From positions 3,974,501-4,038,500 of the forward strand of contig NZ_CP029488.1 of assembly GCF_003177035.1 (NCBI RefSeq): a stretch of DNA of 64,000 nucleotides, written 5' to 3'. Both the position numbers and the translations under genes were made by a program. This document shows, in pieces, positions 24,233 through 29,815 of this stretch; position 1 is the first letter of the stretch; each line of letters opens with the position of its first letter. The DNA is from Salinisphaera sp. LB1 (GTDB lineage Bacteria; Pseudomonadota; Gammaproteobacteria; Nevskiales; Salinisphaeraceae). The notes beneath the pieces were generated by a model. That model was not told where the DNA came from, searched no databases, and saw only the letters and a list, made by a program, of their open reading frames with translations.

Positions 24233-24442
24233 TGGTTCATCAGCGCGCCTGCGGGGAACGGCCAGCTGCGCACGGCGTCTTCCTCGGCATGGTCGGTTCA
24301 TCCCCGCGCCTGCGGGGAACGGGCAGGGTTTGCCAATGCGCCGATTACGATTCCGCGGTTCATCCCCGCGCCTGCGGGGAACGGGCCGGTTAGAATTTCG
24401 TCGCTCATATCGGTTTCCGGTTCATCCCCGCGCCTGCGGGGA
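24233..24442 (-). CRISPR. CRISPR array, leader-distal part (4 repeats, 3 spacers), cut off by an insertion
   Basis: Type I-E-like repeats start at 24233, 24294, 24356 and 24418, in units of 61-62 bases. The repeat is CGGTTCATCCCCGCG followed by CCTGCGGGGAACG. Read on the minus strand it ends in ATGAACCG, which matches the I-E crRNA 5' handle, so transcription should run leftward. The leftmost repeat is degenerate (CATCAGCG), as expected of a trailer end. The rightmost repeat stops after 25 bases at ...GCGGGGA, where the 24443-28550 insertion begins. Confidence 0.93.
24439..24442. repeat. Left copy of 4-bp target duplication (GGGA)
   Basis: GGGA, last bases of the interrupted CRISPR repeat before the insertion. 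The same GGGA follows the right end at 28551-28554. Joining 24418-24442 to 28555-28558 restores an exact 29-nt repeat. Confidence 0.75.
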
Positions 24443-24467
24443 TGGAAGCCAACAATAAAGTCTGTCG
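24443..24467 (+). repeat. Left terminal inverted repeat of the element
   Basis: Matches the reverse complement of 28526-28550 at 20 of 25 positions, including an unbroken CCAACAATAAAG core. An AT-rich stretch follows to about 24560. 24468-24701 holds no gene. Confidence 0.75.
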
Positions 24468-24701
24468 ATTTGCAGATTATAAGCAGTTGTTTTTATTGAC
24501 TTCAAAAAGAGGACAAGTCGTCTAAAGTCTGTCCAGTAATTTGCGCCTTTTAATCATATAGTTACCGGGCAATCCGTGGATACCTCCGGCACACTTGGCG
24601 CCACTCGACTACAGCGGTATACGACCCAAAGCCGACATTCGCGGCAAGCTAAATTGACCCACGTGATAGCCCGCAGAGGAACTCGTCAGATTCGGACAGA
24701 T

Positions 24702-25643
24702 TCAAGTCCGCCATGGGATCCGAGGCGGCATCAGACGTTCGCCGTCGAACCCTGTCACGGATCCGAATCGATCGCTACCGTTCTCCCATTGATGCTGTGC
24801 CTCACTGATCTCGGCCTTGCTGTGACCGACGAAGTTCCACCAGATGAAGATGTCTTCGTCGAGCGGTTCGCCGCCCAGCAACAACACTCGGGTATTTGCC
24901 TCGAGTTCCAGAGTAATGTCGTCGAGACCGCAACCTAGATAGGCGAGCTCGTTCGGTGCGAACGTATCCTGATCGATACGCAGAGCGCCTTCCAGGACCA
25001 GCACGCCATACTCAAAATCATTACGCACGGCCAGTTTGAAAGTGCTGGCATCCGGGCTGACCATGTCAGCTCCGACCAATGGCGAGAACGCCAGCGTCGG
25101 GGCCTCGCGGCCATTCAGGCACCCACTGAGCAGCGTGATATCAGCGCCCTGCTCTTGCCATCGCGGCAGACCGGGGTAATGGTCGAATCGTGGCTGCGTG
25201 TCGCGATCTGCGTATGGCAACGCGATCCAGAGTTGTGCCGCATGAAGCGTGGACGCATTCGCAGTCGACTCCTCCGTATGGGCGATGCCGTGGCCGGCGG
25301 TCATAAGATTCAATTCACCCGGCCGAATGACCTGTTCGCTACCGAGACTGTCCCGGTGAAGCACTTCGCCGGACAGCATCCAGGTAAAGGTCTGAAGCCC
25401 GGTATGCGGATGCGGGCCGACGCGCAGGCCGGTACTGTCGGCCGAAAATACCGCCGGGCCCGCATGATCGAGAAAACACCAGGCGCCGATCATGCGGCGG
25501 CCGCGCTGTGGCATGACCCGGTTGACCGGGATGCTGCCGACATCGGCCGTGCGGGCAGCGAGATGCTGGATCAATCGATGGCCGTCAACCACCGGGCACT
25601 CGCGTGACTCATACAGGCTTGGATTGTGCTCGGTATTGCTCAT
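24702..25643 (-). CDS. Pirin family protein
   Basis: A 313-residue bicupin. The metal ligands of pirins are conserved: H78 and H80 in GPHPHTG, H122 and E124 in GIAHTEE. Some bacterial pirins are quercetin dioxygenases and others bind partner enzymes, so the activity here is open. It is the last gene of the leftward set pirin-ycaC-pirin on the insertion element, and its transcript would run on toward the stranded CRISPR repeats. Confidence 0.92.
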   Translation of the reverse strand: MSNTEHNPSLYESRECPVVDGHRLIQHLAARTADVGSIPVNRVMPQRGRRMIGAWCFLDHAGPAVFSADSTGLRVGPHPHTGLQTFTWMLSGEVLHRDSLGSEQVIRPGELNLMTAGHGIAHTEESTANASTLHAAQLWIALPYADRDTQPRFDHYPGLPRWQEQGADITLLSGCLNGREAPTLAFSPLVGADMVSPDASTFKLAVRNDFEYGVLVLEGALRIDQDTFAPNELAYLGCGLDDITLELEANTRVLLLGGEPLDEDIFIWWNFVGHSKAEISEAQHQWENGSDRFGSVTGFDGERLMPPRIPWRT

Positions 25644-25712
25644 GGCATTCTCCGCGCTCGGTAAAACGATGCCGCCGCCGGCACAACGGCCAGCGGCGCC
25701 AATGAGCCCTTG

Positions 25713-26339
25713 TCAGCTTTCGTTCAGTGCTGCATCACGGCTTTGAATCAGGTTCGAGTAATGCGGCAAGTGGCTGGCAAGTATGCCCCCGAAGGCTTCG
25801 ATATCGTTACGCCAATCGCGGTGTAATTCGCTGGCGACTGAAAACCAGTTCATCAGCTGTACGCCCGCCTGCGACATGCGATGCCAGGCGGCGTCACGCA
25901 CCGCCGGGTTGAAAGTGCCCGACGCGTCGGTGACCACGAATACGTCGTAGCCAGCTTCAATCGCAGACAACGCCGGAAACGCAACGCAAACGTCGGTCAC
26001 GACACCAGCGATCAGGACCTGGCTGTTGCCTGTATCCTTGATCGCCTGCACGAATTCCTCGTTGTCCCAGGCGTTGATCTGGCCAGGCCGCGCAATGTAG
26101 GGCGCGTTCGGAAACGCTTCCTTGAGCTCTGGCACCATCGGGCCGTTCGGCCCATCTTCGAAGCTGGTCGTCAAAATGGTAGGCAGTTCGAAGAATTTGG
26201 CGATATCGGCCAGCGCGAGGACGTTGTTTTTGAACTCGTCGGGCTGGAAATCCCGCACGAGCGAGAGCAGCCCCGCCTGATGGTCGACCATGAGAAGCGT
26301 TACGTCGTTCTTGTCGAGTCGTTTATAGGTGAAGGACAT
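25713..26339 (-). CDS. ycaC: YcaC-type isochorismatase-like hydrolase
   Basis: A 208-residue cysteine hydrolase, the same length as E. coli YcaC and very similar along its whole length. Visible are LLMVDHQAGLLSLVRD with the catalytic Asp (D19) and AGVVTDVCVAFPALSA with the nucleophile Cys (C118). The physiological substrate of YcaC is unknown. The ATG at 26339 was chosen because homology begins at MSFTYKRLDKND; a 19-codon extension upstream has no homology. It sits between the two pirin genes, a pairing seen in other proteobacteria. Confidence 0.95.
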   Translation of the reverse strand: MSFTYKRLDKNDVTLLMVDHQAGLLSLVRDFQPDEFKNNVLALADIAKFFELPTILTTSFEDGPNGPMVPELKEAFPNAPYIARPGQINAWDNEEFVQAIKDTGNSQVLIAGVVTDVCVAFPALSAIEAGYDVFVVTDASGTFNPAVRDAAWHRMSQAGVQLMNWFSVASELHRDWRNDIEAFGGILASHLPHYSNLIQSRDAALNES

Positions 26340-26435
26340 CGCACACCTCCGGTGCTTGGTGATAAAAGCGGGTCGTCCACACGGGCAACCCGCCACATAG
26401 AGTCATCGGTCCAGATTACGATGACTGGTTTTCGA

Positions 26436-27291
26436 TTAGGAAGCCTGGCCGAAATGACCGGTTTGAAAGCCTCGAATCGAGTCTTCGATTTCTTCGGTCG
26501 AATTCATTACAAACGGCCCGTGGCCAACCACCGGCTCATCGATCGGTTGGCCGGTGAGCACCAGCAATTTGGCGTCGTTGTTGGTCTCAAGCTGGATCTC
26601 CGAGCCTGCGCGATCGAACAGAACCAGCTCGGCTTCACGCGCGATCTTGCTGTCGTTGACCTGCACAGTGCCGCTGAGCACGGCGACCATGGCCGTGTGG
26701 CCGTCCGGCACCTCCAGCGTCGTAGCGCCATCGCGGTTGAGCCGCAGGTCCCAGACGTTGATTGGGCTGAAGGTTTTTGCCGGCCCCTTGTGGCCGGCAT
26801 AATCGCCGGCAATCACGTTGATCATGCCCGCTTCATCGGCGAGCTCGACGCCCGGAATGTCAGCGGCCTTAATTGATTGATAGCGCGGTTCGGCGGACTT
26901 GTCGGCCGCCCGCAGGTTCACCCAGAGCTGCACCATCTCAAAGCGTCCACCAGTGCGGGTGTAGGCCGGAGAATGGAACTCCTCGTGGACGATGCCGTTG
27001 CCAGCGGTCATCCACTGCACGTCACCCTTGCCGATCACGCCGCCACCGCCGGTCGAATCGCGATGGGCGACTTCGCCGTCGTACACGATCGTCACGGTCT
27101 CGAAACCGCGGTGCGGATGGGCGCCGACACCGCGCGCCCTCTTCGTGGGCGCGAACTCCCGCGGCGCCGCGTAATCGAGCATGAGAAACGGGGTGACGTG
27201 ATGGGCGCCCATGCGGTCGTAGGTGAACAGCGAGCGCACCGGAAAGCCGTCCCCGACCCAGTGCGGAATAAATCCCCGTAATCGTTTTCAT
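26436..27291 (-). pseudogene. Pirin family gene with an N-terminal frameshift
   Basis: Reading from the ATG at 27291 gives the normal pirin start MKTITGIYS, but the rest of the family N-terminus, HWVGDGFPVRSLFTYDRMGAHH, continues in another frame. The break falls at about 27260-27267, where several bases (around APRR) seem to be missing. The downstream frame 26436-27239 is intact, keeps the metal ligands (AHPHRG and VHEEFH) and could start at a GTG at 27239, making a shortened 267-residue protein. It may be a true mutation, a truncated but active gene, or a sequencing error. Confidence 0.75.
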
Positions 27292-27409
27292 GATCGTCTC
27301 CTGCCGAACGTTCGGCATTGAATGCTGATGCCGGTCATCCTATGCCTGAGACGCACATTTGATTAGCGGGCTAGAATCAAACGCACCGTCTTACTGATGG
27401 AACGATCAC

Positions 27410-28342
27410 ATGCAGGATCTCAACGATCTGTTCTATTTCGTTCAGGTCATCGATCATGGCGGCTTTGCGCCGGCAGCTCGCGCGATCGGCGTGCCGAAGT
27501 CGAAACTCAGTCGCCGGGTCGCACAGCTCGAAAAACGGCTGGGGGTTGGGCTTATCCATCGCAGCACGCGTAATCTGGCGGTCACGGAACTGGGCCAAGC
27601 CTATTACGAGCACTGTGCGGCTATGCTGCTGGAGGCCGAAGCCGCCCAGGAAACGATAGACCGCTCAATCGCACAGCCTCAAGGGCTGATCCGCATGAGC
27701 TGCCCGCCGGGAATGCTGTGTTTCGTCGTGGCGGAGCAGCTTTCGATCTTCATGGCGCGTTACCCGCGCGTACGGGTCGAACTGGAAGCGTCGGGGCGAC
27801 GTGTCGATGTCGTTCGAGAGGGATTCGATCTCGCGATCCGGGTGCGGTTCCCGCCACTCGAAGACAGCGAACTGAACGTGCGCGTGCTATCCGCCAGCCC
27901 GCAGCTACTCATGGCCGCGCCGTCACTATTCGAGGATTATTCGAGGCCCAAGGTGCCGGGCGATCTCAACGGGCTGCCGTCACTCGACTGGGTGCGGCCG
28001 GGCCATACGCATACCTGGTGTCTGGAGGGACCGCACGGCGCCAGCACACAGATCGATCATCGCCCGCGTCTCGTGACCGACGATCTCATCACGTTGCACC
28101 GCACTGCGCTCGCCGGCCTCGGCATCGTTCAACTGCCGTTGCTGGTCGGCGGACGACATATTACCGAGGGCACACTCGTCGATGCACTCCCAGGCTGGGC
28201 ACCGCGCGGCGGCGTCGTTCAGGCGGTTTTCCCCTCTCGACGCGGTCTGCTACCCGCCGTGCGCGCGTTGATCGACTTCCTGGCGGAGCGCTTCGCGGAT
28301 CAGGACTGTCTTACCGAGACCCATCGCGAAAATGGACTTTGA
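27410..28342 (+). CDS. LysR family transcriptional regulator
   Basis: A 310-residue regulator with an N-terminal winged helix (LFYFVQVIDHGGFAPAARAIGVPKSKLSRRVAQLE, near 8-42) and a C-terminal effector domain. It is divergent from the pirin-ycaC-pirin set with ~118 bases between the starts, the classic layout for LysR control of a neighbour. The effector is unknown. It is the rightmost gene on the insertion element; 28343-28525 beyond it holds no gene. Confidence 0.92.
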   Translation: MQDLNDLFYFVQVIDHGGFAPAARAIGVPKSKLSRRVAQLEKRLGVGLIHRSTRNLAVTELGQAYYEHCAAMLLEAEAAQETIDRSIAQPQGLIRMSCPPGMLCFVVAEQLSIFMARYPRVRVELEASGRRVDVVREGFDLAIRVRFPPLEDSELNVRVLSASPQLLMAAPSLFEDYSRPKVPGDLNGLPSLDWVRPGHTHTWCLEGPHGASTQIDHRPRLVTDDLITLHRTALAGLGIVQLPLLVGGRHITEGTLVDALPGWAPRGGVVQAVFPSRRGLLPAVRALIDFLAERFADQDCLTETHRENGL

Positions 28343-28525
28343 TCTCGCTTATCGCCGGGCGACTGCACTGCCACGTCTCGGCCGGGTCACTGTGCGACTA
28401 CTTACGCAGGTGGTAGCCAAGCCATCATTGCAGGGTCCGTGCAGAAAAATTTTCGCAACGGACTACCAAAAATTTGTCGACATTTTCGCCCCCTTTTAAA
28501 AATCATATCTTTAGAGACGACATTG

Positions 28526-28550
28526 CGATGGTCTTTATTGTTGGTTTTCA
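28526..28550 (-). repeat. Right terminal inverted repeat of the element
   Basis: Ends ...CTTTATTGTTGGTTTTCA, the inverted partner of the left end at 24443. It abuts the leftover repeat tail GGGAACGG at 28551-28558. Confidence 0.75.
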
Positions 28551-28554
28551 GGGA
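28551..28554. repeat. Right copy of 4-bp target duplication (GGGA)
   Basis: GGGA directly after the right terminus, matching 24439-24442. It continues into ACGG, the missing end of the split CRISPR repeat. Confidence 0.75.
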
Positions 28555-29716
28555 ACGGGTAACGATCACATACACAAGCGCGCCGAGCCTCGGTTCATCC
28601 CCGCGCCTGCGGGGAACCGTGTTCGTTCTCGTTCTGGTGCGGCTTCGGCTGCGGTTCATCCCCGCGCCTGCGGGGAACGGCTTGTGACTCAAGATTTGTC
28701 GCAGGTTTCTAACGGTTCATCCCCGCGCCTGCGGGGAACGGTGACCGCCACACTTTCCACAACATCGGAAAATCGGTTCATCCCCGCGCCTGCGGGGAAC
28801 GGGTCACACGCGAACCCGCCACGTTGCAATACAACGGTTCATCCCCGCGCCTGCGGGGAACGGTACGGCGCCATAGCCATTGGAATCGACGTTACCGGTT
28901 CATCCCCGCGCCTGCGGGGAACGGTCCCCTGATGTGGCTGACGTTCTTCGCGGCGACGGTTCATCCCCGCGCCTGCGGGGAACGGCTCGGTGGCGCCGGT
29001 AGTGCCGCTGTTTGTGGCGGTTCATCCCCGCGCCTGCGGGGAACGGCGCAGAAACTCGTTGTAGCTGTTGCGTTCCAGCGGTTCATCCCCGCGCCTGCGG
29101 GGAACGGCCACTACGACTACCGGCGCGGATTACACCACGCGGTTCATCCCCGCGCCTGCGGGGAACGGATACACCGTGTCGATATCCGCCTGGATCGCCT
29201 CGGTTCATCCCCGCGCCTGCGGGGAACGGAATGAAGCCTTCGGCCACGTCCATCATGGATTCGGTTCATCCCCGCGCCTGCGGGGAACGGCGATAGCGGC
29301 GCGGTCGGTGGGGTCGTGTTGCCGGTTCATCCCCGCGCCTGCGGGGAACGCTAGTGATGTCTGAAGATTGCTAATATCGGTTGCGGTTCATCCCCGCGCC
29401 TGCGGGGAACGCCTCATGACGATGCCGTGCGTGCGGTCCGTGGCCGGTTCGTCCCCGCGCCTGCGGGGAACGCGAGCGCGGCTTGTATGCGGCCGACGTG
29501 GATATCGGTTCATCCCCGCGCCTGCGGGGAACGCCTGGTTCCGGGTCCAGACCACCCGGCCGAATGCGGTTCATCCCCGCGCCTGCGGGGAACGCGCCGC
29601 TATACCGATCGCCGTAGGCATGGTGTCCGGTTCATCCCCGCGCCTGCGGGGAACGCAACGGCGCCAACATCAACATCCGCAAAACCGACGGTTCATCCCC
29701 GCGCCTGCGGGGAACG
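28551..29716 (-). CRISPR. CRISPR array, leader-proximal part (19 full repeats plus one split repeat tail)
   Basis: Repeats start at 28591 and every 61 bases up to 29689 without exception, giving 18 complete spacers of 32-33 bases. A further 32-base spacer (28559-28590) lies between the repeat tail GGGAACGG and the first full repeat. The repeat matches array 24233-24442 and has the I-E handle ATGAACCG on the minus strand, so the leader should be at the right. The base after AACG is G in the left repeats and C in the seven repeats from 29323 on. Variants: the 28591 repeat ends GAACCG and the 29445 repeat has GTTCGTCC. No cas gene is in the window. Confidence 0.97.
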
Positions 29717-29815
29717 CTAAAAATACATCGCTGTTTTAACAGGGATTTTAAAGACAGACCAAAAGTACCAACCTGAACGCCGGTATTTCAGTGCTGTTAA
29801 AGAGCGCCATCTGTG
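29717..29815 (-). promoter_or_regulatory. Probable CRISPR leader
   Basis: About 100 AT-rich bases (CTAAAAATACATCGCTGTTTT onward, with TTTTAAAGACAG) border the last repeat at 29716 on the side predicted by the crRNA handle. The promoter and integration site should lie here. The match to known leaders is only in composition. Confidence 0.6.

Follow-up and report, generated by a model that had tools for sequence, protein, structure and literature searches.

Transposons of the Tn7 type are bounded by ends that, in one account, hold repeated sites for their transposase (PMC8649781), and the target duplication of Tn7 itself is reported as 5 bp (PMC2918618). In CRISPR-associated transposons (CASTs), an array of clustered regularly interspaced short palindromic repeats (CRISPR) resides inside the transposon and guides it, as the former source describes (PMC8649781). 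Further described kinds of mobile DNA are mobile insertion cassettes (MICs), which have the ends of an insertion sequence (IS) but no transposase, and ISs themselves, of which a case of insertion into cas genes has been reported (PMC10359306). Here, we describe a locus that touches on all of these systems. It lies in a stretch of 64,000 nt from Salinisphaera sp. LB1 (genome positions 3974501-4038500), which we call the window and to which all coordinates without another label refer, and consists of a cargo-only element of 4108 bp that has inserted into a CRISPR repeat and thereby split the array.

The family to which this element belongs shares with Tn7 and Tn7-like transposons the TG...CA termini, the motif ACAATAAAG(TCT) at a matching offset, repeated sites (putatively for TnsB) within the ends, a copy next to glmS at almost the distance seen in Tn7, and toxin-antitoxin genes as cargo. 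It differs from them in that the element lacks tnsABC and tniQ, none of which was found in the host genome either, in that its target duplication looks like 4 bp rather than 5 bp, and in that its right ends depart from the motif of Tn7. With MICs it has in common inverted ends, a target duplication, passenger genes and no transposase, but no IS with matching ends turned up as a partner for the family, and its ends hold repeated sites. As in CASTs, Tn7-like ends and CRISPR repeats occur together; here, however, the array belongs to the host and is the target that was interrupted, the cargo consists of genes for pirin, YcaC, pirin and LysR, and the window holds no cas gene recognizable with the protein set of a relative (G002, see below). 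Finally, as in the IS insertions into CRISPR-Cas loci, mobile DNA interrupts an immune locus, although in this case it is a cargo-only element within a repeat. In sum, this is a real, well-bounded non-autonomous element, ordinary in principle, of a family that did not come up in our searches; its unusual features are Tn7-like left ends combined with a 4-bp duplication, the glmS copy and the repeated meeting with CRISPR repeats. No publication was found on a 4-bp duplication of Tn7 type or on a Salinisphaera transposon together with CRISPR, which does not in itself show their absence from print.

The inserted element and its empty site

The element was bounded by sequence inspection and by joining of its flanks, its terminal repeats by sequence inspection and end comparison, and its right-end segment by a DNA search of the own genome. 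The features in question are (strand in brackets):

24233-29739 (+): CRISPR array of 23 repeats, 29-nt unit, GGTTCATCCCCGCGCCTGCGGGGAACG core; the fourth repeat is split, the first degenerate
24439-24442 (unstranded): left copy of the 4-bp duplication, GGGA
24443-28550 (unstranded): cargo-only inserted element, 4108 bp
24443-24466 (+): left terminal inverted repeat, TGGAAGCCAACAATAAAGTCTGTC
24524-24535 (+): second AAAGTCTGTC core within the left end, with one mismatch to AAAGTCTGTCGA
28349-28550 (unstranded): 202-bp segment at the right end; identity to the glmS copy, 93%
28527-28550 (-): right terminal inverted repeat, TGAAAACCAACAATAAAGACCATC in minus-strand reading
28551-28554 (unstranded): right copy of the 4-bp duplication, GGGA

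At the left junction, the sequence runs from ...GGTTCATCCCCGCGCCTGCGGGGA directly into TGGAAGCCAACAATAAAG, with which the element starts at 24443; at the right junction it runs from CTTTATTGTTGGTTTTCA, which ends the element at 28550, into GGGAACGGG. A first-pass annotation of this DNA had noted inverted ends, TG...CA termini and GGGA at both junctions, and inspection of the sequence agrees on each of these. Likewise, its claim that removal of the segment restores the repeat and the array is borne out: the flanks, joined with a single GGGA, yield 23 CRISPR repeats with spacings of 61, 62 and 62 bp, followed by 19 of 61 bp. An Rfam match across the broken repeat stays far below the gathering score (23.5 vs 50 bits).

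The two ends agree in 16 of their outer 18 bases and in 19 of 24. By itself, this inverted match is within chance, as 21 of 69,435,000 inverted 18-mer pairs, sampled inside the window at distances of 1-10 kb, reach 16/18. Chance does not account for two other features: both ends meet the broken repeat to the base, with 4 bp duplicated, and they recur as a family. It is this exact fit, together with the duplication and the recurrence of the ends elsewhere, that establishes the element.

A family of ends with differing cargo

Within the own genome, the right-hand 202 bp recur at two places, with 93% identity beside glmS (genome positions 1581698-1581898) and partially beside htpG (2077424-2077718). 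The htpG copy is a 1.33-kb element located between htpG and the gene that follows; both ends are present, and the cargo is a CcdB/CcdA pair. Its flanks, AGGA and GGGA, are alike in three of four bases. All 14 genomes of our genus set (Salinisphaera, own genome included) matched at this locus, one of them (G010) over 24 bases only, and the site was without insert in all 12 readable relatives; in four of the loci compared (L130, L133, L137 and L138), htpG runs directly into the same next gene. At glmS, one end begins 24 bp past the stop codon.

A search of the genus set with the 18-bp end, allowing up to three mismatches, gave 20 matches, of which nine continue as a family end and 11 do not. The nine are spread over four genomes, with five in the own genome, two in G006 and one each in G002 and G008. 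Both ends of one element were recognized at the CRISPR and htpG copies only. In G006, two family ends stand head to tail, separated by ACTT and next to a glutathione S-transferase gene (G006:C73, L067:100-150), an arrangement that resembles a tandem insertion or a circle-type junction. The left end in G002 adjoins a RES/Xre-type pair and cuts a CRISPR repeat. In G008, a 19-bp repeat occurs in eight copies, the last of which is cut by the left end (G008:C2, L065:9103-9617). These copies, close to AATGTGAACGGATTTGGGA in sequence, are irregularly spaced, with none expected by chance, and were not encountered in the other loci compared; they may represent the transposase-site array of another element.

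The right end is present in two of 100 relatives searched, the own genome and G006, and has no match in plasmid or phage collections; its core has none in viral contigs. Searches of plasmids with the left end gave one and two matches, all taken as chance, and three matches in viral contigs lack the family continuation. Among 19 exact end matches in a collection with one genome per species, two are family members (GH4 and S. hydrothermalis) and 17 do not continue. The ends thus occur elsewhere and around other cargo, in this genome and in relatives, so that the outcome named by the first-pass annotation as refuting its view did not arise. The Tn7-like character of the ends, the glmS copy and the missing Cas1 match of the genome were beyond what that annotation could see.

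The cargo of the CRISPR copy comprises four genes:

24702-25643 (-): pirin gene 1; Pfam Pirin and Pirin_C
25713-26396 (-): ycaC, isochorismatase-like cysteine hydrolase; Pfam PF00857, NCBIfam NF041461 above cut-off
26436-27239 (-): pirin gene 2; Pfam Pirin and Pirin_C, open from an internal GTG only
27410-28342 (+): LysR-type regulator; Pfam HTH_1 and LysR_substrate, best NCBIfam match below its cut-off

Family searches confirm the predicted content of pirin, ycaC, pirin and LysR genes, the YcaC assignment resting on an NCBIfam equivalog (NF041461, 379 bits against a cut-off of 310), and the LysR gene is divergent from the other three. What did not stand is an intact second pirin gene: its open reading frame (ORF) is open only from the internal GTG at 27239, while the N-terminus that one would expect is encoded in a different frame (27022-27318); judging from the reading frames, the gene thus looks frameshifted near its start. 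No transposase was found in the insert, either in a family scan of the four cargo ORFs or by eye among the remaining ORFs of at least 80 amino acids, which overlap the cargo ORFs in other frames or extend into the flanks; the description as a transposase-less passenger element in a CRISPR repeat is supported. The G+C content of the insert falls to 0.55-0.56 in places (24500-26500), compared with 0.62-0.68 in the gene neighbouring on the left.

Candidate routes of mobilization

The observations that any explanation has to accommodate are defined ends, a 4-bp duplication, a second two-ended copy with other cargo, single ends, and insert-free relatives at one locus. We consider it reasonably probable, if far from certain, that these are non-autonomous transposons of a small Salinisphaera family, mobilized in trans by Tn7-type machinery. 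Such a transposase is proposed because of the left-end match, the repeated site cores and the distance to glmS. The tnsA-side end of Tn7, which in plasmid R721 we located 94 bp upstream of tnsA, and the left-end consensus share ACAATAAAGTCT at an identical offset and agree in 15 of 24 bases overall; among 200,000 shuffled sequences, 219 reach at least 15 matches and none gives a run of 12. The family ends contain additional copies of the site core. Tn7-like transposons carry arrays of transposase sites of about 20 bp at both ends. Tn7 begins 25 bp past the glmS stop codon in two E. coli records (of 113 with a match), and if the duplications are 5 and 4 bp, respectively, Tn7 and the glmS copy start at the same base.

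Under this explanation, another element would supply the transposase in trans, presumably TnsA/TnsB-like and with target selection of the TnsC/TniQ type. This transposase is predicted to bind the ACAATAAAG-type sites at both ends, upon which the segment would be cut out and then pasted into the CRISPR repeat; the mobilizing machinery may later have been lost, or may never have been resident.

Several results weigh against Tn7-type mobilization. The right ends read ACAATAAAGACC, or AAAATAAAGACC at the glmS copy; they start with AAAGACC and have at most ACAATAAAG in common with Tn7. As the right ends, that of the glmS copy included, diverge from the Tn7 motif, the orientation at glmS is not comparable with that of Tn7. 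In addition, a second end of the glmS copy was not recognized over some 20 kb, and the duplication of the family looks like 4 bp, being exact in the window, alike in three of four bases at htpG and mirrored by the 4-bp gap between the G006 ends. The own genome also has no TniQ match (two of the 14 genus genomes match, G002 and G008; the named controls were silent) and no match to the TnsB-like protein of G002, which is matched in 11 of 85 genomes of the order. Searches with PF09299 and PF08721 carry no information, their controls being silent, and the repeats near the tns operons were uninformative as well.

The tns operons of the two relatives were considered as partners as well. On contig C126 of G002 (L098), TnsA-like, TnsC/TniB-like and TniQ matches accompany a protein of 762 amino acids without Pfam match, which is taken as TnsB by its place and length. 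Both this operon and that on contig C9 of G008 (L100) contain two TniQ-family genes, and the presumed tnsB of the latter appears interrupted by a transposase ORF. Neither the stretch of about 34 kb inspected on C126 nor the whole of C9 showed the family ends, which again speaks against Tn7-type mobilization and led us to reject these operons. Around twelve TnsB loci of the order, no ACAATAAAGTCT was found within two mismatches in flanks of up to 1.5 kb, which do not always span both ends; the lone match from the TnsB-locus scan (L100 at 18464) is without family continuation. Given the apparent 4-bp duplication, the failure to find a mobilizer and the absence of these ends from the inspected stretches around the tns operons, we would say that the family works like Tn7 mini-elements, but do not file it as Tn7.

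A less probable explanation is that of a mobile insertion cassette, mobilized in trans by a non-Tn7 IS with TG...CA ends and a 4-bp duplication, in which case the Tn7-like motif and the position at glmS would be coincidental. The length of the duplication fits this proposal, transposase-less cassettes with IS ends have been described before, and by total matches the resemblance to Tn7 is of a kind that arises about once in 1000 shuffles (219/200,000). Yet none of the 20 matches in the genus or the 19 in the species collection lies beside a recognized transposase, and the distance to glmS and the repeated sites in the ends are left unaccounted for. The own genome has 20 PF00665 transposase matches, which, with three single matches left aside, form groups of four, seven and six copies for boundary analysis. 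The left end could be determined for the four-copy group, both ends for the seven-copy group, and no boundary for the six-copy group. The two multi-copy groups thus resolved have other left ends, and neither resembles the family ends, so that the transposases of these two groups were rejected as partners; PF00665 would miss a TnsB such as that of G002, for which Pfam gives no match.

CRISPR arrays as landing places

The first-pass annotation had regarded the target as fixed by the CRISPR repeat. The data do not establish this: only one of the three own-genome copies lies in a CRISPR array, and the others follow htpG and glmS. Moreover, the G002 left end cuts a CRISPR repeat of the same sequence as the own one after 15 bases, whereas the own break comes after 24, i.e. 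9 bp away; the single full spacer at the G002 site differs from all 22 own spacers. On another G002 contig, a Cas1 gene and further open frames adjoin an array with the same repeat, and these frames read as a type I-E cas set, of which Cas1 alone is confirmed by family search. None of seven proteins from this cas region matches the window, and the own genome has no Cas1 match in a family search (11 of the 14 genus genomes match; controls, 9 of 14), other Cas families not having been searched for genome-wide there. Because of the missing Cas1 match, the own array is probably orphaned, and because of this in turn the insertion was probably near neutral, at little cost. Comparison of the own spacers with the insert and nine loci gave one match with seven mismatches, which we take as chance. 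In G006, an EamA-like gene is followed by a two-repeat CRISPR remnant, matching the arrangement in the window, and then, at the contig end, by repeats resembling another CRISPR type (G006:C8, L107:6860-8480).

It is unlikely that the family targets CRISPR repeats preferentially, whether by sequence, structure or a dedicated selector, instead of using them as a neutral place. Two of the five copies with known chromosomal flank do interrupt a CRISPR repeat, one in each of two species and both oriented with the left end to its 5' side, which hints at a preference, and a third, in G008, interrupts another repeat array. However, the numbers are small, one of the two CRISPR copies was picked for being in an array, the insertion points differ within the repeat, the htpG and glmS copies lie elsewhere, and the array of a genome without Cas1 match may be neutral ground. 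Correspondingly doubtful is the more far-reaching notion of a Tn7-type, cargo-only lineage with 4-bp duplications that prefers CRISPR repeats in at least two species, for which arrays would be safe harbours for passengers and be split in the process. An assembly error or an old rearrangement without transposition, finally, is highly improbable: the locus is seen in one genome only, and the DNA search of the own genome with the insert also matches a LysR paralogue (65-69%), but these matches are confined to LysR, the genome is a single contig of 4,141,708 bases, the repeat restoration and duplication are exact, and the same ends surround other genes and occur in other species.

The locus thus provides a base-exact record of the movement of a transposase-free gene cassette, and the family illustrates that metabolic and toxin-antitoxin genes travel between Tn7-looking ends without tns genes. 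Should these ends prove to be those of a Tn7-type transposase, a duplication of 4 bp would depart from the 5-bp rule. Furthermore, the system allows a test of CRISPR arrays, whether active or orphaned, as landing places for mobile DNA.

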